Source: Sporisorium sorghi (Eukaryota > Basidiomycota > Ustilaginomycetes > Ustilaginales > Ustilaginaceae). From it: a stretch of DNA of 64,000 bases. The translations under genes and the position numbers were made by a program. Location: assembly GCA_023212695.1 (NCBI GenBank), contig JALCCG010000006.1, positions 62,001 through 126,000 of the forward strand, given 5' to 3'. Below are positions 18,363 to 62,466 of this stretch, piece after piece; the first letter of the stretch is position 1, and each line of letters begins with the position of its first letter. Below the pieces are notes generated by a model, which saw only the letters and a program-made list of their open reading frames with translations, was not told where the DNA came from and ran no database searches.

Positions 18363-18902
18363 TTAAGCCGTTTGTTTTTTTAGCGGTGTAGGGTTGTTGC
18401 CGTCGCCTTTGGTTGTTTTGTGCGTTACTTTGTTCCACAGGCCGCGAAGGTAAGGGAGTACCCAACGATCGAGACCGATTTTACCGGCATTGGCTGCTGC
18501 GACGATGATCAGTACCTCTAGCAGTAACATTTGGGCGTTGGTGCTCACCGTGCCCGAGAAGAGGAACGCGGCATTCATGACAAGTCCCATCAGTGCGGCG
18601 AAGGTAGTGAAGGTACCAAGGATCAGCCCGACCCCTACGAGGAACTCGCCCATCGGTATGATGAAGTTGAAGATTTTCACGCCTGGCAGTGCTGCATGTT
18701 CCAGGAATGCTGCCCACCAGCCTTGCACGGCTGGATGATCTCCGGTTGCCTTGGCAATCGCGCCTTGCAGGAACCCGCCTGCTTCAAAACCGCCCGTCAA
18801 TTTCCCCCAGCCTGCGACCATCCACTCATAACCGATGTAGACCCGAATGAAGGTCAGAAGCCACATTGCAATTTTGTTTGTTCTCAGCCAGTTGTTAAAC
18901 AT
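18363..18902 (-). CDS. DoxX-family membrane protein, paralogue 1
   Basis: 179 residues with four membrane helices: residues 8-26, about 76-98, 100-120 and 126-145. The DoxX core is clear, with RVYIGYEWMVAGWGKLTGGF after helix 1 and FIIPMGEFLVGVGLILGTFT. DoxX proteins are small integral membrane proteins tied to redox and thiol-stress functions in several bacteria; their chemistry is poorly defined. ATG 18902 is preceded by AAGGAGTG at 6 bases. Two other copies lie at 20247-20771 and 21033-21569. The promoter shares an element with the third copy. Confidence 0.9.
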   Translation of the reverse strand: MFNNWLRTNKIAMWLLTFIRVYIGYEWMVAGWGKLTGGFEAGGFLQGAIAKATGDHPAVQGWWAAFLEHAALPGVKIFNFIIPMGEFLVGVGLILGTFTTFAALMGLVMNAAFLFSGTVSTNAQMLLLEVLIIVAAANAGKIGLDRWVLPYLRGLWNKVTHKTTKGDGNNPTPLKKQTA

Positions 18903-19028
18903 ATAAACCACTCCTTAAAAGTATGATTTCTTTTTTATGAAAGCTTCCTTGCTGGTTCTCGGATGTGTTGAAGTTGTGCGCTGGTGTTGATTTAGGAAGA
19001 TGATCATCTCTTTCATGTCTTTATTATA

Positions 19029-19065
19029 AGTGAAATAAATCACAATATATGTGATAAAAATCACA
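19029..19065. promoter_or_regulatory. Two FNR/CRP-like palindromes upstream of doxX paralogue 1
   Basis: AGTGAAATAAATCACA (19029-19044) and TGTGATAAAAATCACA (19050-19065) both fit (T/A)GTGA-N6-TCACA. Their starts are 21 bases apart, two helical turns. They lie 127-163 bases upstream of the start codon. The same arrangement occurs before paralogue 3. Confidence 0.6.
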
Positions 19066-19198
19066 TTTGTAATTAATATCATAAAAAATAATCATCTTGG
19101 GGAAATGGAAGCATGTGCAGGAGTATGAGTATGAGAACTCAAGAGCAGTAGGATAGAGGAGTAGGAGTGGAGAGCAGCAGTATGCCAGGATGGAGAGC

Positions 19199-19690
19199 AG
19201 ATGTAGAAAGTAAGTGAAGATGCAGCATGTTGGTGTGCAAAGGGCAGTAGTCGGAGGGAGCATGAGCCGGTGCAGAAGTGTGGTGGAATAGAAGGAGTAG
19301 AGTAGAGGTCAGTAAGCAGAATGAAGTTCAAATGTAGGAACTAGTCGAAGGAGCAGGGAATTGGTGTGCTTAGGGCAGTGTCAGGAATTGTACATGAGCG
19401 AACAGGGCAGCAGTGTACAGGAAGATGATTAGGGGAGCTGTATGTTGGATGAAGTTAGATGTAGAAAGTACTTGAAGGTGATGTGCAAGGCAAGGGAGCA
19501 GGAAATTGGTGTGCAAAGGGCAGTGGCAGGAGTACCTATGATATGAGTAAGGGAGTAGTGTATAGGGATAGGATTAGGGGCAACCGTACGTAGGATGAAG
19601 TGTAGATGTAGCAAACGTATGTGAAGGTGCTTGAAGTTGGTGTGCTAGGCAGTGGCAGGAGTGCGCTCATTAGCAGGAGTAAGCAGGAAG
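19199..19690. repeat. Decayed tandem repeats of ~120-150 bp
   Basis: Four diverged copies near 19199, 19319, 19447 and 19594 share GATGTAGAAAGTA- or GATGAAGT-like starts and a GGTGTGCAAAGGGCAGTGGCAGGAG-like end (shortened or altered in each copy). The region is purine-rich on the plus strand and has no credible gene. The rest of 18903-20246 shows no supported feature apart from the operator listed above. Confidence 0.6.
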
Positions 19691-20246
19691 TCGTAAGTTG
19701 TGGGTGCATATGTGCAGAAATAGTCTAACATGTGAATGCGGTATAAATATAGATCCAGGGTCGTACGGAGAGCAAGGATTGCCTAATAAGATACGGATGA
19801 CCGGGATGGAATGCCGCAGTCACCCGTTGGTGTGAGTGGAGCACAAAGCTGTTCCGTACTGTGCCTGAAACTAATGAGCAGAATAATTGGGTATCAACAC
19901 AGCAGGAGCAAGCTCTCAGGCTCCAAGTAAGAGAAAGAGCGGGTACTTAAGCTAAGGAGTAGTCGTAATGATCAGAACGACTGCATTTTTCAGCCTAGCA
20001 GGAGCAGTACATTCATGTTTTAAGCTGGCAAAGAAGTGGTTCACTGCTGTAAGCGACAGAGGGGAAAAGCCCGGACAATATACTTAAAGTTAATCGAATG
20101 AGTCGACTCAGACAGCAGAGGAAGCCAAACGCCACCTGATCGAGGAAAAAGATAACCACATTAAAACTGGAGTTAAGCTGGTATTACGTAATCTATTGAT
20201 TCTGTTCTGCTGAATGCCATTGGTGCACCAGAGAGACTCCTTCTAC

Positions 20247-20771
20247 TCAGACTGTTTGCTTCTGAAGAGTGGAGGGATCGCTGCTGATTTTGACCCGGCG
20301 TGTGAATTTCTCCTGGAGATATGGCATAAGCCAGCGGTCAATACCGATCTTGCCGCCGTTGGCAGCAGCGAGAATAATGAGGAATTCCAGCAGCAGGAGC
20401 TGACCATTGATACTGATGGAGCCCGAGAACAGGAACGCTGAGTTCATCACAAGTCCCATAAGTGCCGCGAACGCGGTAAACGTGCCGAGGATTAGACCGA
20501 GCCCAACGAGAAATTCACCAAGGGGAACGATAATGTTGAACCATTTGACGCCCGGCAGTGCGGCATGCTTCAGGAATACGGCCCACCAATCTTGAACCGC
20601 GGGTTGTTCTCCTGTAGATTTGGCAATCGCCCCTTGCATAAATCCGCTTGCATCAAAACCTCCCGTTAACTTGCCCCAGCCTGCCGTCAACCACTTATAC
20701 CCGACATACACCCGGATGACCGTTAGCAGCCACATTGCGATTTTGCTTGATTGCAACCATTGAATAAACAC
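20247..20771 (-). CDS. DoxX-family membrane protein, paralogue 2
   Basis: 174 residues from a GTG start, chosen because GGAGGAG lies 8 bases upstream and because the protein then aligns with paralogues 1 and 3 from its first residues (VFIQWLQSSKIAMW against MFNNWLRTNKIAMW). It has four membrane helices and the same RVYVGYKWLTAGWGKLTGGF block. It is the most diverged of the three. Its upstream region lacks the TGTGA-N6-TCACA pair and instead has an 18-bp palindrome. Confidence 0.88.
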   Translation of the reverse strand: MFIQWLQSSKIAMWLLTVIRVYVGYKWLTAGWGKLTGGFDASGFMQGAIAKSTGEQPAVQDWWAVFLKHAALPGVKWFNIIVPLGEFLVGLGLILGTFTAFAALMGLVMNSAFLFSGSISINGQLLLLEFLIILAAANGGKIGIDRWLMPYLQEKFTRRVKISSDPSTLQKQTV

Positions 20772-20917
20772 CAGCACCACTCCTCCATGAATAATCATTC
20801 TCTTTTTTGTTTTCAGATTTTTGCAAATTTGAAATTCGTTAAAGCGAAGATCACCGAAAAAAACAGCAACGATCTATTTAATGTCGTCTCTAAACAAATT
20901 ATTCATATTTGCAAAAA

Positions 20918-20935
20918 ACTGTATTTAAATACAGT
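20918..20935. promoter_or_regulatory. Perfect 18-bp palindrome upstream of doxX paralogue 2
   Basis: ACTGTATTTAAATACAGT is an exact palindrome about 150 bases before the GTG start. This form is typical of operators bound by dimeric regulators such as the MarR or HxlR types. The regulator is unknown. Confidence 0.5.
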
Positions 20936-20974
20936 ATTCGCGTAAGGTGCGATTTGGCCTGGGTTCTTGGCATG

Positions 20975-21014
20975 AAAAAAAAGATGACGGGAACCGAAGT
21001 TCCCATCATCTTTT
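20975..21014 (-). terminator. Terminator of doxX paralogue 3
   Basis: On the minus strand AAAGATGATGGGAAC and GTTCCCGTCATCTTT make a 15-bp stem with a TTCG loop and a following run of eight T. Confidence 0.92.
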
Positions 21015-21032
21015 CTGGTGAATCAGACTATG

Positions 21033-21569
21033 TTAAGCTGTGCGCTTTTTAAAATTTGTTGTCGTTGTTTCAGGCTCGCTGGCGCGGTGCGTAATCCGGC
21101 CCCACACACCACGGAGGTAAGGCAGTACCCAACGGTCAAACCCGATTTTACCGGCATTAGCAGCGGCTACGATGACCAGTACTTCAAGCAGCAGCATCTG
21201 GGCGTTGGTGCTTACCGTACCCGAGAAGAGGAACGCGGCGTTCATGACCAGTCCCATCAGTGCGGCGAAGGTGGTGAAGGTACCGAGGATCAGTCCGAGA
21301 CCGACCAGGAATTCACCGAGTGGGATGATGAAGTTAAACAGGTTCACGCCCGGCAGTGCCGCATGTTCGAGGAACGCTGCCCACCAGCCTTGTACTGCCG
21401 GGTGATCGCCGCTTGCGTTGGCAATCGCGCCTTGCAGGAAACCTCCGGCATCAAAGCCGCCGGTTAGTTTACCCCAGCCTGCCGTCATCCACTCGTATCC
21501 GAGGTAGACCCGAATGATGGTCAGCAGCCACATTGCAAATTTGTTTGTTCTCAGCCAGTTGTTAAACAT
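21033..21569 (-). CDS. DoxX-family membrane protein, paralogue 3
   Basis: 178 residues, nearly identical to paralogue 1 through most of its length (same MFNNWLRTNK start, GYEWMTAGWGKLTGGFDAGG, NAQMLLLEVLVIVAAANAGK), diverging in the last 25 residues. Four membrane helices. The ATG has AAGGAGTG 6 bases upstream, and even the leader resembles that of paralogue 1. This pair is therefore a recent duplication, including the promoter. Confidence 0.9.
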   Translation of the reverse strand: MFNNWLRTNKFAMWLLTIIRVYLGYEWMTAGWGKLTGGFDAGGFLQGAIANASGDHPAVQGWWAAFLEHAALPGVNLFNFIIPLGEFLVGLGLILGTFTTFAALMGLVMNAAFLFSGTVSTNAQMLLLEVLVIVAAANAGKIGFDRWVLPYLRGVWGRITHRASEPETTTTNFKKRTA

Positions 21570-21683
21570 ATAAACCACTCCTTAAGTGAGTTTTTGATTT
21601 TTGGTTGATTGCTGTGTTTCCGATGTCGATGTTGTGGGTTCTTGTTGTCTAGAAGTGATCACCTTCTCTATGTCTTTATTATA

Positions 21684-36206: not shown

Positions 36207-36623
36207 TTACTTTTTTGACTGTTTAATGAACTTAGTTATCTTCTCCATTGTACCTTCAAAGTCATTTTTAACTTCATGTTCCCATACTCGTAATACAAAC
36301 CACCCTAGTTTTGAATAGTAGAGATTAACATCATTATCTCTGGCGACATTCCTCTGGAGTTTTTCCTCCCAGTATTCTATATTTGAACTCGGTTTTTTTC
36401 CGTGTATTGGACATGAATGCCAAAAGCAAGAATCAATGAAAATGACTATTTTGTACTTTTGGATGGCGATATCAGGATTGCCCATGAGTTTTCTAACGTT
36501 TTTTCTGAATCTGAATCCTTTATTCCATAATTCCTTTGTAACCTTGCTTTCCAATAAAGACCCTGTAGAACGTATTGCCCTCATATTCTTCGAACGTTGT
36601 TCTTTGGTATGCTTATCCGCCAT
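36207..36623 (-). CDS. vsr: Very-short-patch repair endonuclease (Vsr)
   Basis: 138 residues from ATG 36623, placed after GGAGGATTTT. Vsr motifs are complete: RSKNMRAIRSTGSLLE at the N-terminus, the catalytic Asp in NPDIAIQKYK, FIDSCFWHSCPIHGKKP for the zinc site and active site, and YWEEKLQRNVARDNDVN. It nicks DNA 5' of T in T:G mismatches formed by deamination of 5-methylcytosine, so it fits the C5 methyltransferase of this locus. It is divergent from the nuclease/ATPase genes. Confidence 0.94.
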   Translation of the reverse strand: MADKHTKEQRSKNMRAIRSTGSLLESKVTKELWNKGFRFRKNVRKLMGNPDIAIQKYKIVIFIDSCFWHSCPIHGKKPSSNIEYWEEKLQRNVARDNDVNLYYSKLGWFVLRVWEHEVKNDFEGTMEKITKFIKQSKK

Positions 36624-36982
36624 AAAATCCTCCAAGATAAAATGATTTTTTCATGTATAGGCCGCACATTAGAATAAAAACGAGGGTAATAGTTCCCCAT
36701 TGTTAACAAGGACTTTTGACCCTTATTGTCGAATTAAAATATTCAGGATATTGTTCAGAATAAACCAGAGATATAAAAACGTACATAAACAACACTCATG
36801 AGGTTTTGGGACATTTACTGTGGTTACCTTGGCGTTAAAAAGTGAAGCTGTTAACTGTTTTAAATTTTACAGGAAGACAATCCGGACAGAATACTATTTT
36901 AACGGCACCTACTGTTATATCGAGAAGGTTCAAATATTACAATTAATGTCGAAAATCAGAGTTAACGCAAAGGAGTAATAAA
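36624..36982. promoter_or_regulatory. Divergent promoter region of vsr and the restriction genes
   Basis: About 360 AT-rich bases with no gene. AAAGGAGTAATAAA is the ribosome site of the first nuclease gene. I saw no repeat matching the HTH operator at 42.4 kb. Confidence 0.5.
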
Positions 36983-38134
36983 ATGAAATTGTTATATTCC
37001 AATATACTGCCCCTTAGTATACCCGAAGGTCAAGAAACATTTATTGACTGTTTTAATGAACAGTTTGCAAAATCAGATCGTGTTGAGATTGCAGTTGGGT
37101 ACGTATCGCGTGCTGCATTAGAGGAACTAGACATTCTGGTTGAAGAGCATAAGTTATCTCACATATGTATTAATATTGGTATGTACTTCACAGAAGGAAT
37201 GCCTGAAGGTACTTACAATATCGCACTTGAACTGAACAAGAAATGGAAAGATGCTGGTATTGGCGAAATTAGGATTGTAAAAGCATTTAAGTATCACGGG
37301 AAATTATACTGCTTTTATCAAAAAGGAAATCCCATTTCTGCTATCATTGGTTCTGCAAACTTAGGAGCAATCAAATTGGAGGCTAGTAATCGCCGACAGT
37401 ATGAAATCTCATCGATTACTGATGATCCTGCCGAATGCAGAGAAATCGCTGAGTTTATTGAGAGGCTTAAAGAACAGAATTGTTCTTCTAATATTGCCTG
37501 CATAGAAGGAATGCCGCTAATTAGAGAAGTTAATACATCACTAAGCGGCATCGACAGAGTAACTCAAATTCCTCAAACCGGTGTACAGCTTTATGAAAAA
37601 CATAAGACAGAAGTTTCATTTGTCTTGCCGTTAAAAGTCCCCACTTATATTGAGCGGCATATGGATGATGGCAAGCATTTTACGAAATCAAATATTAACG
37701 TCTGCTATGCAGCACCACGGAGTAAGAGAAAATCCCGTGATTGGTATGAGGTCCAGCTGACCGTAAGTAAAGAGATTACTCGTTCTGTGGGATACCCTGA
37801 AAAGAACAATGCCTTTTTTGTTGTTACTGATGACGGCTATTGGTTTAAGGCTCATACCACAAGTGATGGCAATAAACAGTTCAGCGCCGTTGGCGATGAG
37901 CTTATTCTTGGTCGTTGGATTAAAGGCAGACTTGCAGCTGCAGGACTTGTAAAATCTGTTAATGATACCCAAGCTGATACAGATCGCAAAGGAATGATTA
38001 CTAAAGAAATGCTACAAGCGTATGGTTGCGATAGCCTTGTCCTTTCCAAAACAGACCAAAGAGCTTTGGATGAAGATGGGTCAGAGCTTGACGTATGGGT
38101 TTTATCGTTTGAAACAACAACTTTGAATGAATGA
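36983..38134 (+). CDS. PLD-superfamily restriction endonuclease (NgoFVII-like), catalytic subunit
   Basis: 383 residues in two domains. Residues 1-185 form a phospholipase-D-fold nuclease with the half-site HxK at H105/K107 (KYHGKLYCF), IIGSANLGA with N126, and a Glu in RRQYEIS. The C-terminal ~200 residues resemble the B3-like DNA-binding domain of NgoFVII/BfiI-type enzymes (NNAFFVVTDDGYWFKAHTT, then ITKEMLQAYG). PLD nucleases work as dimers that build one active site from two subunits and need no metal. The stop codon lies just before the next gene. Assignment as the restriction nuclease is strong from fold and context; the recognition site is unknown. Confidence 0.82.
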   Translation: MKLLYSNILPLSIPEGQETFIDCFNEQFAKSDRVEIAVGYVSRAALEELDILVEEHKLSHICINIGMYFTEGMPEGTYNIALELNKKWKDAGIGEIRIVKAFKYHGKLYCFYQKGNPISAIIGSANLGAIKLEASNRRQYEISSITDDPAECREIAEFIERLKEQNCSSNIACIEGMPLIREVNTSLSGIDRVTQIPQTGVQLYEKHKTEVSFVLPLKVPTYIERHMDDGKHFTKSNINVCYAAPRSKRKSRDWYEVQLTVSKEITRSVGYPEKNNAFFVVTDDGYWFKAHTTSDGNKQFSAVGDELILGRWIKGRLAAAGLVKSVNDTQADTDRKGMITKEMLQAYGCDSLVLSKTDQRALDEDGSELDVWVLSFETTTLNE

Positions 38135-38145
38135 GAGGTACGGCT

Positions 38146-40002
38146 ATGCAATACTTAAAAACATATCTTCAAAAGATTACAGACCGAGGTAATGTAAAAT
38201 TGGCAGAGTCTATTGCTAAAACTGCTGAAGATATTGGCAATCAACATATTCGAAATTTTTCATTTATAACGCATGAAATTGGTCTGTTGTTTGGAAATGT
38301 ACAGTCGGGGAAAACCGGCCAAATGTTTGGCATCATGTGTAAAGCTACGGACTTGGGTTTTCCAGCATTTATCTTGCTCACAACGGATAATGTTGTTTTA
38401 CAAAAACAAACCTTGGAACGCGTCAGAAACGACTTGGACGGTTTCTGTATCTGCGGTGAAAACGATTCTGGTTTATTTATTGAAAATAGCCTTGTCAAGC
38501 CAGCAATTGTTGTTCTGAAAAAAAATGCAAGAGTGCTGAGGCTGTGGGCGAATGTATTCAATTCAACGGGCTTTATGAAAGGTAACCCTCTATTCATCGT
38601 TGACGATGAGGCGGATGCGGCTTCATTGAATACACTTGTAAACCGCAATGGTCAGTCATCGATTAATAAGTATTTGGATTCTATAAAGAATGGGGCATCA
38701 AGCAGTTTGTATCTACAAGTTACTGCTACCCCTCAAGCTATCTTACTACAGACAATTGCTTCCGGATGGCATCCGTATTTTTCCTACTACTTCCGTCCAG
38801 GCGATGGCTATTTAGGCGGAGATTTTTTCTTCCCGAATACCGGTAAGCCTGAATGCATTGACTATCTTGAGACAATTAAACGACCAACGCGAAATGTTGT
38901 TTTACGCCACCTTGCTGTTTCTGCACAGATAATGGCAACCGGTGGGAAAGTATCTAATTGTCTTGTACATCCAAGTGTGCGTCAAGCTGTCCACCAGCAT
39001 TTTGCTGATGATGTAAAAAAAGAACTTAGTTGGTGTTCTGAACACATCAATGATGATTTTATATCTGAATTGCAAGTTCAGTATGCTTCTTTAGCACCTG
39101 AGAAAAGCGATAAACTTCCGTTTAACGATATCTACAAGATTACCAAGAGATTGTTGGAAAATAAGATTATAAAAATCCTTGTGATGAACGGAAAAACAGA
39201 TGTTGAAAGTTCAGAATATGAACTAGGGTGTAATTTTATCATCGGAGGAAACACCCTTGGTCGGGGTGTCACTTTCCCTGGATTGCAGACTATTTACTAT
39301 ACAAGAACAAGTAAAACACCGCAGGCTGATACAATGTGGCAACATAGTCGAATGTTCGGTTATGACAGAGATCCGGGAATGATGAAGATATTTATAGAGG
39401 AACATCTTTATAAATTATTTTCGGATATCAACGCCACTAACAATTCCGTCATCACTCAGATAGAGCAAGGCATTGATGACATAAAAATCTATTATCCGAT
39501 TGGATTAAATCCAACAAGAAAGAACGTGCTTGATAATAAACACGTAGAGGTTATCTCAGGAGGAGCAAACTATTATCCGTTTTATCCAGATAATGATTCT
39601 ATCGAAGGTATTTCAAAACTATTAGAACCCTTTTCCGACGATGAACCTTACTATCAAGTGAATTTGAGATTTATTAAGGAGATATTATCACATATTATTC
39701 CGAGTCCTGATTTTAAACTGAATGCGTTCCTTTCTGTTATTGACACTCTTCTTTCAGAGCAACCCGCAGGACAAGGTGTTTTAATAGTTCGCAGAGAAAG
39801 AAATGTAGCACAAGGAACAGGTGCGTTATTGTCTCCTAACGACTGGAAACTAGGTGGTACAATCCTCGACAAAGTAGTCCTTACCATGTACCAAGTCACG
39901 GGAACTAAGGGATGGGGCGGAAAGGCTCTTTGGGTGCCCAATATTAAACTTCCTCACGATACCATGTATTATGATGTGGTTGAAGATGAGACGGAAGCGT
40001 AG
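38146..40002 (+). CDS. Z1-domain superfamily II ATPase
   Basis: 618 residues from ATG 38146, with GAGAGG 8 bases upstream. Helicase-like motifs in order: Walker A GNVQSGKTGQ (residues 50-59), Walker B IVDDEADA (near 150), motif III VTATPQA, the Z1 signature IIGGNTLGRGVTFPGLQ near 370, and motif VI QHSRMFGYDR. Z1 ATPases are known from restriction and repair loci that also carry C5 methylases, Vsr and various nucleases. It probably translocates on DNA or remodels the nuclease complex. It lies 11 bases after the first nuclease gene and 14 before the second. Confidence 0.88.
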   Translation: MQYLKTYLQKITDRGNVKLAESIAKTAEDIGNQHIRNFSFITHEIGLLFGNVQSGKTGQMFGIMCKATDLGFPAFILLTTDNVVLQKQTLERVRNDLDGFCICGENDSGLFIENSLVKPAIVVLKKNARVLRLWANVFNSTGFMKGNPLFIVDDEADAASLNTLVNRNGQSSINKYLDSIKNGASSSLYLQVTATPQAILLQTIASGWHPYFSYYFRPGDGYLGGDFFFPNTGKPECIDYLETIKRPTRNVVLRHLAVSAQIMATGGKVSNCLVHPSVRQAVHQHFADDVKKELSWCSEHINDDFISELQVQYASLAPEKSDKLPFNDIYKITKRLLENKIIKILVMNGKTDVESSEYELGCNFIIGGNTLGRGVTFPGLQTIYYTRTSKTPQADTMWQHSRMFGYDRDPGMMKIFIEEHLYKLFSDINATNNSVITQIEQGIDDIKIYYPIGLNPTRKNVLDNKHVEVISGGANYYPFYPDNDSIEGISKLLEPFSDDEPYYQVNLRFIKEILSHIIPSPDFKLNAFLSVIDTLLSEQPAGQGVLIVRRERNVAQGTGALLSPNDWKLGGTILDKVVLTMYQVTGTKGWGGKALWVPNIKLPHDTMYYDVVEDETEA

Positions 40003-40016
40003 GAGGGTAAGCAGGT

Positions 40017-40973
40017 ATGTTCACTAATAATATAGCACAAAAAATCTTTTTTGCTCCTTTACTTCAAGGAGCAGATACTTTACTGATATTAAGTGGATAT
40101 GCTACTCCCAATATGGCATCATGGTTGATAAAGAGTTTTCAGGATCAGAATATGTCTTCTGTAAAAATTGCATTGCTGATAGGCATGGTTCCTTACGACG
40201 GGCTTAGTGTTCCTATACATGAAGGATTTAAAGAACTCCATGGCAAGGTATATCCAAATGCCGTGGAGAGTTTTACCTGTAGTTATGTTTGCGAAAATCC
40301 TCCAGTCCATGCGAATTTATACATTTGGCTAAGAGATGAAACGCCAATGCTGGCTTATACAGGTTCTGCTGATTTTGTACAAAACGCATTTATTACATCG
40401 CGAAAAGAAATCATGGAATACTGTGATCCAGATGAAGCATATAGATTTTTTGTGGAAGTTGAAGCAAACTCTATATATTGTAACCATTCAGAGGTTGAAG
40501 ATCATATCGTTCTCCGCCCAAAACATCAAATATTAGATACTGAAAATAATCACATAACCACTTTGGCTGGGGAGGGTATTGGTTCCATAAAATTATCTCT
40601 TCTTACGAATAAAGGTGACATTGGAGAAAAGTCCGGTCTAAATTGGGGCCAGCGTAAGGGTAGAAACAGAAACCAAGCGTATATACATCTTCCTGCACAA
40701 ATCGCGAGAACGGGTTTCTTTCCGCTTAATAAACAGCATTTTACTGTAGTTACAGATGACGGTCATACGCTCCTATTAAGGGTAGAGCAACAAAACAATA
40801 AGGCGATTACAACACCCCTCAGTAATGCTCAGCTTGGAGAATACTTTCGAAACCGTTTAGGACTTGGGAATGGAGCGTTCATAACGAAGCAGGATCTTCT
40901 AAATTACGGAAGAACAGAAGTTATCTTTTACAAAATTGATGATGAGCAATACTTTATGGATTTCCATGTATAA
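40017..40973 (+). CDS. NgoFVII-like PLD protein with altered catalytic residues
   Basis: 318 residues with the same two-domain plan as the protein at 36983. In the PLD half-site the usual HxK is H98-A-N100 (PPVHANLYIW), and GSAN is GSAD (D119), so the catalytic Lys and Asn are both replaced. The following E (SRKEIMEYC) is kept. The C-terminal domain is the better match to the NgoFVII B3-like domain (SGLNWGQRKGRNRNQAYI, FTVVTDDGHTLLLRVEQQNN, GEYFRNRLGL). It may be a specificity or structural partner of the first nuclease rather than a nuclease. AGGAGGG precedes ATG. Confidence 0.8.
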   Translation: MFTNNIAQKIFFAPLLQGADTLLILSGYATPNMASWLIKSFQDQNMSSVKIALLIGMVPYDGLSVPIHEGFKELHGKVYPNAVESFTCSYVCENPPVHANLYIWLRDETPMLAYTGSADFVQNAFITSRKEIMEYCDPDEAYRFFVEVEANSIYCNHSEVEDHIVLRPKHQILDTENNHITTLAGEGIGSIKLSLLTNKGDIGEKSGLNWGQRKGRNRNQAYIHLPAQIARTGFFPLNKQHFTVVTDDGHTLLLRVEQQNNKAITTPLSNAQLGEYFRNRLGLGNGAFITKQDLLNYGRTEVIFYKIDDEQYFMDFHV

Positions 40974-41020
40974 AAAAAGCAGTTACTTTGTTGTTTTTCT
41001 AACAAAGTAACTGCTTTTTT
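40972..41020. terminator. Bidirectional terminator between restriction genes and methylase
   Basis: AAAAAAGCAGTTACTTTGTT and AACAAAGTAACTGCTTTTTT form a perfect 20-bp stem around eight bases. A and T runs on both sides serve both converging operons. The methylase stop codon lies inside it. Confidence 0.95.
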
Positions 41021-42071
41021 ATATTTTAATACTTGGGGCAACACTTTCGTATTCAATTCCAGCAAAACACTTCAAAATAGCCTCGAAAATAATTTTCGCA
41101 CCTTGGCAAGGTACAGCCATACCAATTTGCTTTCGTACACTCTCTTTACTTCCTAAGAACCTATAGTTATCAGGGAAAGTCTGCAACCTTGCCCGCTCTC
41201 TATTAGTCAACGCCCGTGGCTCTCCCCAATGATAAATGTGTGTTCCTCCCCCGCCGCTTCCTGTAACTGTATATGATGGCTTTGTTGGATCGAGTCTTTT
41301 ATAGATTTGACTTATTTTTGCACCTGTAACGTTAAGCCGCAGTTCTTCTGGGAGGTCTGCTGTGAATGCATTCTGCCCTGGAAGAATATGCTGCAGTCTT
41401 TTAACAACAGTTGCTGATTGTTTCGTCAGTTCGTTATTGAAAGCATCCTTTGGAATGGGAGGGTTTTCTATTGCATTTCTGCAAGTATTATCAATTTGGG
41501 TATAAGGTGCTGTTGATGGAACTTTAAATTTAATGTCGATATCATTTCGTATGCCGACAATAATCAAACGGTGTCTTGCTTGAGGTACTCCGTATTCCTC
41601 AAATTTATACAAATGAGGTGTGATCGTATAACCGGCCTCTCTCAACTCATTGAGAATCATAGTGAAGGCCTTACCATCATTTGCGTTTCTAAGTCCGCCT
41701 ACATTCTCTGCTATAAACCACTGTGGTTGAAAGATCTTTAAAGCTTTGACCCCGTATGAATACAAGGGACCATAAACTCCGTCCATACCTCTTTGTTCGC
41801 CAACAACGCTATAATCATTACAAGGGAAACCAAAAGCGAATGCATCAATCGGAGCTAGCTTAGACATATCAAGCTTACGAATGTCCTCATGGTAAACAGT
41901 ATTAGGTTCATCGGGACAAATATTATATCTATAAGTTTCACAGGTATCCGCGTCATAATCATTTGCCCACTGATGTACAATTCCGAAATCGTTATTATCT
42001 ATATTTGCATTCATGGCTCCCCAAGCTATACCGCCCGGACCGCAAAATAATTCTCCTAGCCTAAAAATCAT
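41019..42071 (-). CDS. DNA (cytosine-5)-methyltransferase of the restriction system
   Basis: 350 residues with the ordered C5 motifs: I (LGELFCGPGGIAWG), IV with catalytic C84 (FGFPCNDYSVVGEQRG), VI (ENVGGL), VIII (QARHRLIIVG) and X (IGMAVPCQGAKII). The target-recognition region between VIII and IX spans about residues 180-265. It protects host DNA by making 5-methylcytosine, and Vsr repairs the T:G mismatches that follow. It begins 2 bases after the HTH gene, so expression is coupled to the controller. Confidence 0.94.
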   Translation of the reverse strand: MIFRLGELFCGPGGIAWGAMNANIDNNDFGIVHQWANDYDADTCETYRYNICPDEPNTVYHEDIRKLDMSKLAPIDAFAFGFPCNDYSVVGEQRGMDGVYGPLYSYGVKALKIFQPQWFIAENVGGLRNANDGKAFTMILNELREAGYTITPHLYKFEEYGVPQARHRLIIVGIRNDIDIKFKVPSTAPYTQIDNTCRNAIENPPIPKDAFNNELTKQSATVVKRLQHILPGQNAFTADLPEELRLNVTGAKISQIYKRLDPTKPSYTVTGSGGGGTHIYHWGEPRALTNRERARLQTFPDNYRFLGSKESVRKQIGMAVPCQGAKIIFEAILKCFAGIEYESVAPSIKI

Positions 42072-42073
42072 AA

Positions 42074-42403
42074 TTAATCAACCTTCCTTTTTTTGTTGAG
42101 AAAATCGATCTGGGCTTGAATGTGTTGCTGTTCCTCGTCATCAAGAGATGAAGCACCTTGAAACACAAACCGATATTCTCTAATATCTTCCTCATTCAAA
42201 TACCCTGCTAACACATAAAGTGGTATCAATTGAATTTTATATAAACGTGCAAGTTTTTTTAAATCATCAGGAGTGCAATTAATCTGTCCTCTCTCCATTT
42301 TGCTAAGTCTTGAATCTGTTAAACCAGTTAATTCATACACCTTTTTTAGGCTCAAATCACTTTTTTCGCGACTCTCTTTCAGTCGGTCGCCTAACGCGGA
42401 CAT
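42074..42403 (-). CDS. HTH (XRE-type) controller protein of the restriction-modification locus
   Basis: 109 residues. A lambda-repressor-like HTH covers residues 5-62 (LSLKKVYELTGLTDSRLSKM is the helix-turn-helix), followed by an acidic helical tail. Such proteins in restriction loci regulate their own operon and delay restriction until methylation is established. A strong inverted repeat lies 60 bases upstream. Confidence 0.88.
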   Translation of the reverse strand: MSALGDRLKESREKSDLSLKKVYELTGLTDSRLSKMERGQINCTPDDLKKLARLYKIQLIPLYVLAGYLNEEDIREYRFVFQGASSLDDEEQQHIQAQIDFLNKKRKVD

Positions 42404-42433
42404 ACTATCACCTCTAATTTAGAATAACATATC

Positions 42434-42486
42434 CGCTGCGAAATTAAAAGTTTTTTGCTGAAAATCGCTGCGAAAGTGCAGCGATT
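42434..42486. promoter_or_regulatory. Probable operator of the HTH controller
   Basis: AATCGCTGC-GAAAGT-GCAGCGATT is a perfect 9-bp inverted repeat (42463-42486). A half-site CGCTGCGAAA is repeated 32 bases closer to the gene (42434-42443). Confidence 0.65.
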
Positions 42487-42524
42487 ATTCAATAATAAGC
42501 AACTCTATTTTTGCGAAACGGCCC

Positions 42525-43035
42525 TCAAGCTAGCTTACAATCGGTAATGGTCTTTTTGATTAGGTAAGAATTAAGTAGTCGATTAAATCCTTCACTCAGG
42601 AACTTTCTACGATTAAACCGATAACAGAATTCATCTAAATAGCTTTGCAGGTGTCTAGAGTCAAGTCCGTGAAAAGTGCCGAGTACAAATAATTTAAGAT
42701 TGGAATCAGTATGTGTATCCACTTGAGGAGTTCAGGATCTCCCTTTGCACAGATGTCCCTTCTCATTCTCTGAAAGGGAGAAAAGCACTTGGTTTTTATC
42801 GTTACCGCGTCCGTGCTTGCCATTCTTAGTCGGGGCACCGATGTAAAATCGTCAATCTCCACAAAGCCTGACAGCTTGTAGACTGTAATAAGGGGAATGT
42901 TGATGTATTAATCTGGAAATAATCGTAATAAATACAATTTAGACAGGAAAATCCAGCTGGCCATTTAAGTTGAAACAGATGCATATGGCATACTTGTTTT
43001 GAATCAAATTTCTGTTGAAATTTTGCAAAAGTCAT
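42525..43035 (-). pseudogene. Decayed IS1595-type transposase
   Basis: MTFAKFQQKF followed by a zinc-ribbon start (KWPAGFSCLNC) is the N-terminus of IS1595-family transposases. After frameshifts come NGKHGRGNDKNQVLF, matching the family GKRGRG block, and finally GTFHGLDSRHLQSYLDEFCY with RFNRR, the conserved C-terminus. The catalytic core between these is mostly deleted. Terminal inverted repeats were not found. Confidence 0.78.
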
Positions 43036-43310
43036 GATCTCCTGCTTAGCCACAATCCTCAAATACGAACATATGTTTGTTAATATCTTAACAAACAATT
43101 CTTCGTGTATCAAGATTGATCTGAGCTAACTTGACAGCCATATTTACGATCTTACTCAATCCCAAACTCATAAATTTTCTTATTTGCCTAATCATCTGAT
43201 TCTGTAAATTCAACTTATCCGGTATATGAAGTGATGTTCAGAACTCTACATTGTCACATCAACGCACTTTACTGTTTCACTGGAGTTGTTTTTCTTATTC
43301 TCACATTTTG

Positions 43311-43358
43311 AAAAAAATCTTGAACCATGACCCTATCTGTGGGTCATGGTTCAAGATT
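43311..43358 (-). terminator. Terminator of the regulator-peptide operon
   Basis: AATCTTGAACCATGACCC and GGGTCATGGTTCAAGATT form a perfect 18-bp stem around seven bases. On the minus strand it ends in a run of seven T, about 60 bases after the peptide gene. Confidence 0.93.
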
Positions 43359-43417
43359 ATAGGAATTATCTTCTGTTGCCTAATTCACCTTACATGTTTG
43401 TTATTACTACGAAATAA

Positions 43418-43579
43418 TTACCACCCACCACCCTCACCATGACTATTTGTAGTAATTATGTGAGAAGGAGAGGGGAGGATTAATTGATCCTCATTGGCAG
43501 GGATAGTGATATTGTTAGTGAATACAAATGCACATATGAAACTAAGAATGCACGCAATATCCATCAACTTTTTTCTCAT
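43418..43579 (-). CDS. Exported pro-peptide (candidate pheromone) overlapping the regulator gene
   Basis: A 53-codon gene read from ATG 43579. GGAGGT lies 11 bases upstream inside the 3' end of the TPR-regulator gene, which it overlaps by 38 bases in another frame. The product has a basic start (MRKK), a hydrophobic segment to about residue 20, a polar spacer, and a C-terminus SHGEGGGW. This is the plan of Phr/PapR/NprX-type signalling pro-peptides: export, then trimming to a short C-terminal peptide. It is the last gene before a strong terminator. Function is inferred from size, layout and its neighbour. Confidence 0.68.
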   Translation of the reverse strand: MRKKLMDIACILSFICAFVFTNNITIPANEDQLILPSPSHIITTNSHGEGGGW

Positions 43580-44948
43580 TACAATTATAAACCTCCTTCA
43601 TCAATTGGGAGTATCTTCGGAGATCTGATTGATCGATCTCATGCCGAATATGTTCGATTGTCGAGCAGCATTTTACTATATTAGCTATATTATTAATTTT
43701 ATACGAAACATTTAAACTATCCAATATAAATCCTGTGCCCTTATGGATATTTCCTTGATTTATATAATATTCACCAATTTCGGCGAGGAAGATGGCAAAG
43801 CGATTATTTATTATTTGTTGGTTATAACTTCCTACCACGCATCCCTGCTCATATTGCTCTCTTATAACACTCTCATATTGTTCTAGATACTTATCAATGT
43901 TCCAATGATGTACAATAGCTGCGTGTATAATTCTAAAAAGTGCCCTTAATATTTCATTTTCAAGAGAAGAAATATACTCAATATACTCGTCGATTACTTG
44001 AAAGTCTCCATTCATTACTTGATATAGATAGCGATTTCCTTTGGCCCACCTGATGAATTTTTTCTTAATATCTTCGGAAACTTTATCTGATTCTTTGATC
44101 CAAGTTTGATCTTCGTAACAGGAAACATAGAATAAAGCTTCATTATAATTAGATTTTTCTGCTGCTATTGAGCCTAGTAGCAAATCAGAGTATAGGATAT
44201 AACCGAATAAAGGTTTTTTAGGAGTTGAATTGTTCTTCTTATTTTTAGATTTGTTATGATTTTGTGCGTTATAAAGAAATCTCGAAATTCTCCCCATTTC
44301 CCGGGCATAGTATTTAGCTTTATCCCATTTTTGGAGGGAAAGTAGAGTATTGGTTAGATCTTCTAGAGCGTCCAATTGTACTACTTCAGGAAGGCGCTGA
44401 ACGTATGCTTCAAACTGTATTGTACAGTCTAAGTTATGTTCCTGATCCGAGTTTAAGGAGCATGTAAATATTCTATACTGACACATGCCTAATCTCTCGG
44501 AATGTTGGTATTTTTCACTCTCGGCAACCTTCTTGTATATGATCATGGCTGCTTCTCGATCTCCCTTACGATATAGCGCTTCTGCGCTATCAAAGAGCAA
44601 AGAAGAATAAGTTAAATTATCCATCATCATACCAATAACGTGATCTAAGCATTTAAGTTTGTCTAGTTCGGCACAACGCATGATAAATGGGCCAAGTCGT
44701 CTCCAATTTGGAGATGATTGAATGATACATTCATTCGCATATAAGGAATAAAAATATCCCTCTTCCAAATTCATGGCCTCAGTAATTAAATCCAGGTTGG
44801 AGACGGAAAGGGGCTGTTGCCCTTTTATGAATCGGCTGAGAGTTCCTGAATTAATCCTCGATTTATTTGCAAAAGAGGAAATGCTGAGATTTTCCCTATT
44901 TAGGTATCGTAAGAGTTCCGTACTTATCGTTGTGTCTGTAGGTATCAA
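43542..44948 (-). CDS. HTH-TPR regulator of the RNPP type (probable peptide-pheromone receptor)
   Basis: 468 residues from a TTG start with GGAGGGG 7 bases upstream. Residues 10-60 form an XRE-type HTH (LSISSFANKSRINSGTLSRF). The remaining ~400 residues are helical TPR-like repeats (EALYRKGDREAAMIIYKKVA, YYINQGNIHKGTGFILDSLN), as in PlcR, NprR and AimR. A Lys/Asn-rich loop near residues 235-247 interrupts the repeats. It probably binds a re-imported peptide and changes its DNA binding. Its gene overlaps the pro-peptide gene. Confidence 0.83.
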   Translation of the reverse strand: MIPTDTTISTELLRYLNRENLSISSFANKSRINSGTLSRFIKGQQPLSVSNLDLITEAMNLEEGYFYSLYANECIIQSSPNWRRLGPFIMRCAELDKLKCLDHVIGMMMDNLTYSSLLFDSAEALYRKGDREAAMIIYKKVAESEKYQHSERLGMCQYRIFTCSLNSDQEHNLDCTIQFEAYVQRLPEVVQLDALEDLTNTLLSLQKWDKAKYYAREMGRISRFLYNAQNHNKSKNKKNNSTPKKPLFGYILYSDLLLGSIAAEKSNYNEALFYVSCYEDQTWIKESDKVSEDIKKKFIRWAKGNRYLYQVMNGDFQVIDEYIEYISSLENEILRALFRIIHAAIVHHWNIDKYLEQYESVIREQYEQGCVVGSYNQQIINNRFAIFLAEIGEYYINQGNIHKGTGFILDSLNVSYKINNIANIVKCCSTIEHIRHEIDQSDLRRYSQLMKEVYNCNEKKVDGYCVHS

Positions 44949-45339
44949 GGATATCCCCCTCCAGATTTAAATTCCATATTCAGGAAAATAACGTATATAA
45001 GTAATTTAATGCATAATACACCATTGGTCAATAACTTTATAGTAGGATTAGAAAGATAAGTTAAATTAAAGAGAAATACGTAGTTAGTAATTGATTCTTC
45101 AAAATTTATAGAGAACTAAAATGCGTCCTTAGAAGCTACATTAAATAAAGCCTTTAGTATTAATAGACAGATTTCAGTTTTTGGTTGAACTATTAAAATA
45201 GTCTTATAAGATGGCTGTAGATGATCACTATATCCATATATGAAAAATTATTAATGCTTCTAGAATTTGCTCAACTGCAGCAAGCGCTTATCTAACTGAA
45301 CAGGGTGAATCATCATTACATGTAGAACGGAGCTTTCTT
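44949..45339. other. AT-rich divergent intergenic region
   Basis: 390 bases between the regulator and the NERD gene. It must hold promoters for both directions, but I cannot pick a convincing one. No gene seen. Confidence 0.5.
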
Positions 45340-46038
45340 ATGTTTGAAAAATTAAAGTCATTGTTTAAATCCTCTGATAACCCAAAGAAAAAATCGGCTC
45401 AACAAACGAATAAAGCCAAAACTTCAGGAAACAACGACAAACCAAAGGTTCAACCTACTCGAATTGGTGAGCTGGGTGAGCATAAGATTAATATTCAACT
45501 AGACCAACTCCCCAAAGGATGTAAATATGTAAATGATTTAATGGTGACGAATTCGAAGTCCCGTACGGGTTATTCGCAGATTGACCATGTGGTAATCACG
45601 CCGCAAGGATTGTTCGTCATCGAGACGAAGAACTACACCGGAGAGATTAAGGGAATTAGAGAGAATAAATCATGGACGGTAAGTAACCGATTTAAAATGT
45701 ATAATCCTTTTATGCAAAATTACGGCCATATTCAAGCGATTAAAAGTTTGCTCCCTGACTACCAAAAGAGCCGTTTCATTTCACTGGTTTCTTTTACGAT
45801 GCGGTGTAGATTCAGCGTAGATCCGGAGCTTAGAAAAATCCAATCGGACGAACTGATTGTGTACGATGTTGAGCTGTCCGAATATATTCAGCGAAAAATG
45901 AATCGGATTCAAGCGGAGAAGATGGAAACCGTTCTAGCGGAAGCTGATATTCAGAAGATCTATCAATCATTGATTGAGGCGAACATCACTGATCCGAAGA
46001 TTCGAGCTGAGCATGTAGAAAAGACGAAATTACGTTAG
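45340..46038 (+). CDS. NERD-domain protein (nuclease-related domain)
   Basis: 232 residues. A Lys/Ser/Gln-rich N-terminal tail of about 40 residues is followed by the NERD domain, with IGELGEHKINIQLDQLP, the catalytic-type core SQIDHVVITPQGLFVIETKN, and YNPFMQNYGHIQAIKSLL. The D...ExK pattern (QIDH, ETK) is that of restriction-fold nucleases. NERD proteins are common in accessory regions and are thought to process DNA. Confidence 0.88.
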   Translation: MFEKLKSLFKSSDNPKKKSAQQTNKAKTSGNNDKPKVQPTRIGELGEHKINIQLDQLPKGCKYVNDLMVTNSKSRTGYSQIDHVVITPQGLFVIETKNYTGEIKGIRENKSWTVSNRFKMYNPFMQNYGHIQAIKSLLPDYQKSRFISLVSFTMRCRFSVDPELRKIQSDELIVYDVELSEYIQRKMNRIQAEKMETVLAEADIQKIYQSLIEANITDPKIRAEHVEKTKLR

Positions 46039-46080
46039 TATCAAAGAAGATATGATAACACTAGAAATGAGGGCTTATAT

Positions 46081-46653
46081 ATGAAAGGCAAATTCTCTAC
46101 AGAGGCATTATTGCTGAGCTTGGCAGTTTTTTTTTCGTTTACGGGTGATGTCTCTGCTGCAGTAAAGAAACCGAAGGATATCTTTGCTGAAAAGTATCCT
46201 AATGAAGTGGTTAAGATCGTCAAAACCGATGACCTTAACAATGACAAGAAAAAAGAATCGTTTATTCTCACTGAATCGGGTAATTTTTATCTAATTAACT
46301 CAAAGGGACAAGTTGTTTTAATTAACACAGGTATTATAAGTGATGAAGATTTTAAGCAATCGACGATCCAAGTGTTTACAGTATCGAAGACCGAGAAACA
46401 TGTGGCTGTTACGTTCTCTTATTTCCCCTCAAATACACAACTATATGTATATCGACTTCAGTATGGGAGCTTGAGTAAAACTCTTCAATTAATGGGAGAT
46501 CTGGGAGTTTACATTGATTCAAAGGGTAAAGTACATCAGTACTGGAAGAATCATAGAATCGAAGGCGGCTGGGATCTGGCAGAGGGAATATTCACCTGGA
46601 GTACAAAGACCAATAAGTACAAAGGTTCAGGAAAATACGTGCGACAGAGTTAA
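46081..46653 (+). CDS. Secreted protein of unknown function
   Basis: 190 residues with a signal peptide (MKGKFSTEALLLSLAVFFSF, cleavage near DVSAA). The rest is a beta-rich domain with repeated strands (ESFILTESGNFYLINSKGQV, TQLYVYRLQYGSLSKTL), perhaps a propeller fragment. No family recognised. GAGGG precedes ATG. Confidence 0.7.
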   Translation: MKGKFSTEALLLSLAVFFSFTGDVSAAVKKPKDIFAEKYPNEVVKIVKTDDLNNDKKKESFILTESGNFYLINSKGQVVLINTGIISDEDFKQSTIQVFTVSKTEKHVAVTFSYFPSNTQLYVYRLQYGSLSKTLQLMGDLGVYIDSKGKVHQYWKNHRIEGGWDLAEGIFTWSTKTNKYKGSGKYVRQS

Positions 46654-47562: not shown

Positions 47563-47857
47563 GTTGTTGTTTAAGTAAATTCGTTATCTCAGGATCGGCA
47601 GTAATGCGGACTTCCGGATATTACTCCTTATAAGTTTGGACGTATTGGTAAACGTCCGCTGCCGTTTCTAATGATCAGGTGCAGTCTGCCGGTCGCTTTT
47701 CATGCCGTTGTATTGTTTGAATTGTAATAATCTGATTAAAAAAATTATGGAATTAACTTAAAAAAACGGAAATAAAGTAAGATCATAGCACATTTAAAAC
47801 CTGTGGCATGTCTCATGGGAGCGCTACAGATAAATAAAAAAACAAGGAGGTTTGAAA
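47563..47857. other. Leader region of the lysozyme-like gene
   Basis: About 295 bases with no gene. CTGTGGC/GCTACAG (near 47802-47829) can form a 7-bp stem just before the ribosome site AAGGAGG. It does not resemble the leader element of the neighbouring genes. Confidence 0.4.
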
Positions 47858-48874
47858 ATGACTAATAAAAGGTTTCCTTTTAAGCGCTTATCACTTTTGG
47901 TAATTTTAGCAGTATTTCTATTCACATTCTGTGCAGCCTTACCATCAGTAAACGCAGCCGCTAGAGGAGCATGGGCTCCAAATACCGCATATGCAGTAAA
48001 TGACACAGTAACCTATAGTGGAAGCACTTATACTTGTCTTCAGGCACATACTTCTCTCGTAGGTTGGGAACCGTCCAATGTTCCCGCTTTATGGCAGAAA
48101 GGCGGTAGCGACGGAACTACGCCACCAACCCCACCACCGACAACGAATGGAGTAACATTCTATGCAGATATAAACTATGGAGGAAAAGCAGTGACACTCG
48201 GGATAGGCAATTATACACTGTCTCAGTTGAACGCAAACGGAATTCCGAATGACTGGATGTCGTCTCTTAAGGTTCCAAGCGGTTGGACGGTTGAAGTATA
48301 TGAGAATGATAATTTTGGAGGAACAAAGTGGACCTTTACTTCAGATTCTTCCTGGGTTGGCAACACGATCAATGACAAAATGTCATCGGTCAAGATTTAT
48401 ACGGGTTCACCATCTCCTATAGTAACAAAGCCTGCCGAGGTTCCGAGCCATATATGGACATATGTCATGAATGCGGACAATGCCTATGGGAAAGGCGGAG
48501 ATTTTGCTTTATTGCTAAGTGCTGTTATCAAAAAGGAAAGCAGCTTTGGAGCAGGTTTACCAGGTAGTCCATCGGCCGGCGACGGATTGATGCAGGTAGA
48601 ACCAAACACACGCAATGCGTATTTATCTCAATTCAGCTCAAAATTTGGCCGTGCGTATAATCATAGCAGTGAACAAGATCAGGTATATCTGGGTGCGTTG
48701 ATTTTAAATGAGAAGATTACGAAGTTTGGAAATATCTACAACGGATTATTACACTACAACGGTGGAGATAACTGGTATCCGGGAGCTACGGATTCTTATG
48801 GCCGTCCTATTCTGGCAGATCAATATGCAGATGCAGTTTACGCTACTTATAAGGGCTATGGCGGAAAGAATTAA
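47858..48874 (+). CDS. Secreted chitin-binding, crystallin-fold, lysozyme-like (SLT) enzyme
   Basis: 338 residues from ATG 47858 (AAGGAGG upstream; TTG 47852 rejected). Order of parts: signal peptide to about residue 36 (ALPSVNAAA); a CBM5/12 chitin-binding module at 38-80 (APNTAYAVNDTVTYSGSTYT); a Thr/Pro linker; a beta/gamma-crystallin module at 98-185 (VTFYADINYGGKAVTLGIGN, YENDNFGGTKWTF); and a lysozyme-like transglycosylase domain at 195-338. The catalytic Glu is at about residue 227 (AVIKKESSFGAG). It would cleave peptidoglycan or chitin outside the cell. The combination of modules is unusual. Confidence 0.88.
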   Translation: MTNKRFPFKRLSLLVILAVFLFTFCAALPSVNAAARGAWAPNTAYAVNDTVTYSGSTYTCLQAHTSLVGWEPSNVPALWQKGGSDGTTPPTPPPTTNGVTFYADINYGGKAVTLGIGNYTLSQLNANGIPNDWMSSLKVPSGWTVEVYENDNFGGTKWTFTSDSSWVGNTINDKMSSVKIYTGSPSPIVTKPAEVPSHIWTYVMNADNAYGKGGDFALLLSAVIKKESSFGAGLPGSPSAGDGLMQVEPNTRNAYLSQFSSKFGRAYNHSSEQDQVYLGALILNEKITKFGNIYNGLLHYNGGDNWYPGATDSYGRPILADQYADAVYATYKGYGGKN

Positions 48875-61761: not shown

Positions 61762-62466
61762 GTGGCAACGTTAATCGAATTCAAAAATGTAACCAAGGCA
61801 TATCAAATCGGCGAAGTGAAGATTCAAGCCCTCGCGGGCGTTGATTTCTCCATATCAGAGGGGGAATTCGTCGTTATTTTAGGAGCCAGCGGGGCGGGAA
61901 AAAGCACGATTTTGAACATTCTCGGCGGGATGGATACCGCTAGCTCAGGACATGTGTTTGTTGGGGATCAAGAGATTACGGGATGGAGCGAGAAGAAATT
62001 AACCGAATACCGCGGGGAGCAGGTTGGCTTCGTATTTCAATTCTATAACCTCATCCCGAATTTGAATGCGCTGGAGAACGTTGAATTTGCGACAGAGGTA
62101 TGTAAGGACCATCTGGACGCCCGTGATATTTTACATAAGGTTGGACTAGCGAATCGCATGAAGAACTTCCCTTCCCAGCTCTCTGGCGGCGAACAGCAAC
62201 GAGTTGCGATCGCGAGAGCGGTTGCCAAGAATCCCGCACTTCTGCTCTGCGACGAACCCACCGGTGCTTTGGATTACGTGACAGGGAAGTCAGTCTTAAA
62301 GCTCCTTCAGGATTTGAACAAGGAAACGAAGACCTGCGTCGTTCTGGTCACCCATAATTCGGCCATAGCGCCGATGGCGGATAAAGTGATCCGCGTCAAG
62401 AGCGGAAGGATCGAGAGCATCACGATCAATGATCACAAACAAAGCGTTGAAGGGATCGAGTGGTGA
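61762..62466 (+). CDS. ABC transporter ATP-binding protein (MacB/LolD type)
   Basis: 234 residues from GTG, with GAGGAG 8 bases upstream. Walker [10 protein letters not shown] (near residue 37), Q-loop [15 protein letters not shown], signature [14 protein letters not shown], Walker [13 protein letters not shown] and switch His in VLVTHNS are all intact. The [13 protein letters not shown] block is typical of the MacB/LolD class that powers FtsX-type permeases for mechanotransmission or export of lipids or peptides. Its stop overlaps the permease start by one base. Confidence 0.95.

Follow-up and report, generated by a model that had tools for sequence, protein, structure and literature searches.

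A probable AloR-AloP quorum-sensing pair without a neighboring spo0E-like gene in Paenibacillus glucanolyticus-like DNA

Introduction

Alo systems of the Paenibacillaceae consist of a receptor with helix-turn-helix (HTH) and tetratricopeptide repeat (TPR) domains, AloR, and an exported pro-peptide, AloP, encoded after it; in Paenibacillus polymyxa ATCC 842 the pro-peptides are 32 to 50 amino acids (aa) long (Voichek 2020, PMC7425212). Mass spectrometry showed that nine of 14 AloPs of P. polymyxa are secreted and C-terminally processed, and the peptide of AloP13, which has the mature form SHGRGG and a pro-peptide tail ending ITVSSHGRGG/NITIGNGSQITVSSHGRGG, alters AloR-dependent transcription (PMC7425212). 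Voichek et al. also sought frames that overlap the 3' end of aloR, and they drew a comparison with the arbitrium AimR-AimP system, where a receptor gene is likewise followed by a peptide gene and the regulated element lies downstream (PMC7425212). AimR and AloR have a published structural clan in common. Here we describe a receptor-peptide locus, aloR-aloP, in a 64,000-nucleotide stretch of DNA (the window; positions 62,001 to 126,000 of contig JALCCG010000006.1) from an assembly deposited under the name Sporisorium sorghi (GCA_023212695.1). The locus is very probably an AloR-AloP quorum-sensing pair of a P. glucanolyticus-like bacterium, and thus a system of an already known kind, its role in signaling being assigned by analogy.

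Results and discussion

The receptor gene and its overlapping pro-peptide gene

The receptor gene aloR (positions 43542-44948, minus strand) encodes 468 aa. Its TTG start is preceded by a GGAGGGGG site; start and ribosome-binding site are conserved in four related loci (L009, L011, L012, and L014). The product is 98% identical to the receptor of P. glucanolyticus NBRC 15330 (L012), the nearest strain, and 81% identical to that of L009. A homology search gave 734 homologs with E <= 0.001, and the named ones among the 120 listed are nearly all from Paenibacillus. Homology to AloR is direct: an alignment of 461 columns with the AloP13-linked receptor of P. brasilensis, which has a peptide ending in SSHGRGG and a Spo0E-like gene (PF09388) after it, gives 30% identity (E 4e-74), and identity is 37% over 99% of the length to a plasmid-encoded receptor of P. 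polymyxa ATCC 842, whose end is overlapped by 35 bp by an annotated small protein. A preliminary description of this DNA had proposed an HTH-TPR regulator. The open reading frame (ORF) stands, and an AlphaFold2 model (mean pLDDT 88.4) predicts an N-terminal HTH domain and a C-terminal TPR-like superhelix; Pfam yields only a weak HTH_3 match (E 6.7e-4, below the cut-off) and no TPR match in the 468-aa protein. A search of NCBIfam with the same protein matched no family, and a profile search of the PDB found no RRNPP receptor and four weak matches to the HTH region (E 0.045 or worse). The Rap-Phr, NprR-NprX, and PlcR-PapR systems, none of whose receptors came up in that search, also differ from the locus in their peptide motif.

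The pro-peptide gene aloP (43418-43579, minus strand) shares its first 38 bp with the 3' end of aloR (43542-43579), and its ribosome-binding site, GGAGGT (43591-43596), lies within aloR, 11 nt before the ATG. The predicted product, at 53 aa slightly longer than the pro-peptides of ATCC 842, starts with MRKK and a hydrophobic stretch, and its tail, ...NITIPANEDQLILPSPSHIITTNSHGEGGGW, ends in SHGEGGGW. All of this agrees with the preliminary description, which had, however, regarded the Gly/Trp-rich end as unlike known peptides; it resembles the published AloP13 signal SHGRGG. Two homologs, P0121 (96% identical) and P0122 (72%), carry the same C-terminal octapeptide. Calling the gene unannotated was right in part: a 96%-identical protein of Paenibacillus sp. 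LBL is annotated as hypothetical. On the 3' side, a perfect 18-bp stem and T tract (43316-43358, minus strand) form a predicted intrinsic terminator (z -5.81; none of 200 shuffles folded as well), which starts about 60 nt past the aloP stop codon and not directly after it, as had been stated. By sequence, the genes form a two-gene unit with a terminator-like close and, upstream of aloR, a conserved TTGACC-type element.

The aloP genes of the window and L009 differ by 20 nucleotides in 15 nonsynonymous codons, all within codons 5-44, and by 8 synonymous differences; in codons 46-53, which encode SHGEGGGW, there are 3 synonymous and no nonsynonymous differences. A variable stretch before an unchanged octapeptide is what one expects of a pro-peptide whose C-terminal signal is under constraint, and the codon comparison shows the mark of purifying selection on this end. 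Three side observations concern the peptides of other loci. P. campinasensis (L010) has one receptor and two copies of the peptide gene, ending in SHGEGGDW and SHGEGEPW. The assembly that contains the window holds paralogous receptors, 85% identical, at L002 (contig C457) and L003 (C35); the C-terminal IIKKPYTAASPQHGEGGW is common to both of their peptides, so the two receptors may share one signal. Near position 3997 of L095, an IMG/VR contig, a small frame following another gene repeats the motif NHGANS and is possibly a peptide with two signal copies.

The sequence-level features that we compared place the locus within Alo: a receptor homologous to AloR, an N-terminal HTH and a modeled TPR-like domain, and a short exported frame overlapping aloR. 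A downstream Spo0E-like gene, which is frequent in Alo systems and not defining, is absent. Alo13 of P. polymyxa resembles the locus in its HTH and TPR receptor, its overlapping exported pro-peptide, and its SHG.GG C-terminal signal (PMC7425212), and the P. brasilensis Alo13 copy also has TTGACC upstream of aloR. The two differ in that the receptors are only about 30% identical and the signal ends in GGGW in the window and in GG in Alo13. By analogy with Alo13 and other RRNPP systems, the AloP pro-peptide would be exported and processed to a signal from its C terminus, either SHGEGGGW or a portion of it; the signal would be re-imported by an oligopeptide permease and bound in the TPR groove of AloR, altering the action of AloR on DNA.

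Exported frames recur after related receptors

We collected 79 loci from genome contigs (the best 80 of 335 relatives were kept), 21 from viral contigs, and 8 from the window's assembly. A frame was counted if it had an ATG, a Shine-Dalgarno match, a length of 35-60 aa, K or R near the start, and a hydrophobic N-terminal segment; the control genes were ORFs of 250 aa or more elsewhere in these loci. Two pieces of one receptor region (L007 and L008) and three loci at contig ends (L090, L093, and L106) were left out. An exported frame follows 87 of the 103 testable receptors and 4 of 506 control genes, and one of those 4 resembles another Alo-type peptide; the rows are related and partly near-duplicate (L001/L012, L002/L015, L003/L018, and L098/L105), so this contrast gives no clean probability. 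The frame starts at the same offset as in the window in 63 of the 87 peptide-bearing loci, and 79 of the 87 frames have HG in their C-terminal part. The proposal of the preliminary description that the receptor is of the RRNPP type and is overlapped by the gene for its own exported pro-peptide is supported, and its suggestion that such a frame should recur after homologous regulators mostly held.

The same counts bear on the idea that the small protein acts alone, as a membrane microprotein or in a bacteriocin-like way, and is no pheromone precursor. Its small size and hydrophobic N-terminal segment are, as is generally known, common to such proteins. However, the frame is tied to AloR receptors, its middle is variable and its HG-type C terminus constrained, and its end is like the experimentally active SHGRGG (PMC7425212), and we regard an independent function as highly improbable.

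A branch of Alo without spo0E

A tree of 103 rows (102 loci and the AloP13-linked receptor; L007, L008, L107, L090, L093, and L106 were left out) was computed by a "quick" method with the Shimodaira-Hasegawa-like approximate likelihood ratio test (SH-aLRT) as its only support measure, and it has a long AloR13 branch. In it, the window's receptor belongs to a clade of 24 rows (SH-aLRT 100), here called the GGW clade; the peptides of those rows that have one end in HG.GGW or close variants. Inside it, the window's subclade comprises 16 rows (SH-aLRT 100), ten with a peptide and six that fail the strict frame test.

In all eight other rows of the GGW clade (L022-L027, L088, and L089), the 800 bases downstream contain a spo0E-like gene, at about +250 to +470; Pfam confirmed two of these genes (L022 and L023). 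In contrast, we found none in the 16-row subclade, either within those 800 bases or in the 1.5-2.5 kb scanned downstream; a single antisense spo0E pattern match in L021 had no Pfam hit. The three Spo0E-like genes that PF09388 detects in the window's assembly are all on contigs free of alo loci, and in P. glucanolyticus NBRC 15330 just one Spo0E-like gene shares a contig with a known alo locus, about 47 kb away from it. The well-supported GGW clade and, within it, a subclade that lacks spo0E are new details. The Spo0E-bearing GGW systems are otherwise much like the window's: their peptides have SHG.GGW ends, and TTGACC lies upstream of the receptor in 7 of 8. A terminator-like site lies 3' of aloP in 16 of 18 peptide-bearing loci of the GGW clade, including 8 of 8 with spo0E (none of 360 shuffles, which kept base composition only, gave one). 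With a terminator after aloP, spo0E in those loci would have its own promoter.

A candidate regulatory element at the aloR promoter

The putative aloR promoter (45003-45033, minus strand) includes a putative regulatory element, TATTGACCAATGG (45021-45033). With L007 and L008 and three loci with short upstream sequence (L010, L100, and L104) left out, TTGACC is present upstream of aloR in 71 of 103 loci vs 14 of 434 control genes; for the ordinary -35 box, TTGACA, the counts are 13 of 103 and 11 of 434. The exact pattern TATTGACCNNTGG has 10 sites in three Paenibacillus genomes: 8 belong to aloR promoters, and the remaining 2 fall within other genes; a reversed control pattern has 5 sites. Of its eight sites in the window's assembly, four are at aloR promoters and two inside bacterial genes, and contigs C199 and C451 account for the other two; the count for the reversed pattern is 3. 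The window itself holds a second exact match (20331-20343) inside a gene, and two matches are what chance would give. Within the 16-row subclade, all 9 peptide-bearing members whose available upstream sequence is long enough have exact TTGACCNNTGG, as does 1 of the 6 others (Fisher 0.002, a value that overstates independence because the rows are related).

In the part of the family studied here, most aloR promoters carry TTGACC(NNTGG), which suggests autoregulation, with the TTGACC-type element as a candidate AloR operator; TTGACC-NN-TGG can possibly be read as a CC-N3-GG dyad that covers the -35 box. As aloP is not followed by a spo0E-like gene, the pair's own promoter is the only local candidate target, on which AloR would act via TATTGACCNNTGG over the -35 box in this clade; further targets may lie elsewhere in the genome. 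We did consider TTGACC as a family-wide operator behind the published Alo cross-regulation and rejected it, since it lies upstream of only 3 of the 19 receptors from P. brasilensis (6 of 19 have TTGACA); within the part of the family treated here it is retained. The words "motif," "operator," and "binding site" are absent from the main text of the Alo paper (PMC7425212), and a literature search joining Paenibacillus, RRNPP, promoter, and "binding motif" found no paper. A tentative extension, which we hold to be possible and rather doubtful, is that the subclade has been freed from Spo0E and is a free-standing, self-regulating signal node, with its own promoter element as the sole conserved local target and with remote targets, and that loss of the peptide tends to go with loss of the element among its members. 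The locus predicts an SHGEGGGW-type signal, an Alo branch without spo0E, and, for some of the family, a candidate AloR operator; if the element is an operator, the targets of many Paenibacillus pheromone systems could become predictable from sequence.

Evidence against a functional pair

Several observations weigh against this assignment. The best fold matches of the receptor model are to eukaryotic proteins: Foldseek and VIA-align ranked LGN-type TPR proteins at the top and did not single out RRNPP receptors. The window's aloP peptide was found in only 6 of 100 genus genomes searched, and the window and L012 differ in aloP by 2 nonsynonymous and no synonymous changes, both within the spacer. 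TTGACC is not a family-wide feature, as its scarcity in P. brasilensis indicates, and some of its signal could come from an ordinary -35 role. Sixteen of the 103 receptors fail the strict frame test. The frame lies further downstream in two of them (L080 and L084), and two others (L013 and L074) have a recognizable frame and no in-register ATG, that of L013 being shifted at a run of A near the start; no frame was found in the remaining 12 of 16, six of which were checked by eye. All six members of the sister group of the window's group (L013, L014, L016, L017, L020, and L021) are among the failures. In P. brasilensis, where 19 of 28 matches were examined after fragments (L142 and L159-L166) were dropped, a convincing exported frame follows 7 of the 19 receptors.

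With 12 of 19 lacking such a frame, orphan receptors are common in that species, which slightly weakens the assignment to a working pair and slightly strengthens another explanation, namely, that the window's receptor is an orphan HTH-TPR regulator and its small frame a relic with no signaling function. The lost or broken frames of the sister group and the missing spo0E target downstream in the window's subclade fit a relic as well. On the other hand, the window, L012, and L009 all keep an intact frame with its ribosome-binding site, signal segment, and octapeptide, and P0122 has the octapeptide as well; the last eight codons of aloP have only synonymous differences from L009; and TTGACCNNTGG keeps company with the peptide across the related rows of the subclade. 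We therefore consider a relic unlikely and prefer a functional AloR-AloP pair. Another alo locus on the window's contig, about 60 kb away (L005, C439:166928-168295), has a receptor interrupted by a single TGA and a peptide frame that is open and ends in YTHGGGAY.

Genomic neighborhood

The preliminary description placed the pair in a prophage-derived island beside restriction genes and considered it a possible controller of a divergent NERD gene or of island functions. A scan of 22 window proteins against PHROGs found no capsid, portal, terminase, or integrase family; the matches were to regulators, a methyltransferase, a Vsr-type endonuclease, a ParB-like protein, and unknowns, and one protein (47852-48871) had weak tail-fiber/endolysin matches. 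Phage matches to the receptor comprise only two Brevibacillus records at 23% identity, and a plasmid search with positions 41000-46100 gave no near match; these searches do not support a prophage or plasmid origin, which we rejected. A prophage arbitrium module in which an AimR-AimP pair controls lysis-lysogeny, for all its likeness in gene order, is very improbable: the receptor, which has no NCBIfam family, is directly homologous to AloR and belongs to a Paenibacillus family, the peptide is different, and phage structural or integration families are missing from the 22 proteins scanned.

The NERD-domain gene (45340-46038, plus strand; PF08378, E 1.7e-25) is the divergent neighbor of aloR. 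Control of this gene by AloR is not supported, because in the nearest strain, L012, it is split over two frames while aloR-aloP is intact; moreover, of the 20 loci compared, only three have it next to the receptor (the window, L012, and L014; L010 has almost no upstream sequence), and we rejected it as a target. In L014 (5068-7371), the NERD protein is 93% identical to that of the window and the adjacent receptor, which has no peptide frame, is 65-67% identical; we read this as the same site with a receptor strongly diverged or exchanged.

On the other side of the pair, a broken IS1595-like transposase remnant (42525-43113, minus strand), with PF12762 (E 1.9e-6) and PF12760 (E 0.0061, below the cut-off) in separate ORFs, lies between aloP and the restriction genes, outside the system, and marks the edge of an island. 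In the window, the region beside it (36207-42871) encodes an NgoFVII-type restriction-modification system and Vsr, whereas the same site in P. glucanolyticus NBRC 15330 (L012, 8080-13404) has the Dpd-type genes DpdD, DpdK, and DpdJ and an HNH protein. Since the nearest strain has a different island at that place, a link between the pair and the restriction genes is not supported.

The assembly as a whole (23.2 Mb, 469 contigs) looks mixed: it has P. glucanolyticus-like contigs and at least one contig, C451, with a eukaryote-type gene, which encodes a 663-aa GDI-domain protein. Elsewhere in the window, positions 18363-21578 encode three similar small membrane proteins of 181-183 aa, which we take to be DoxX-like.
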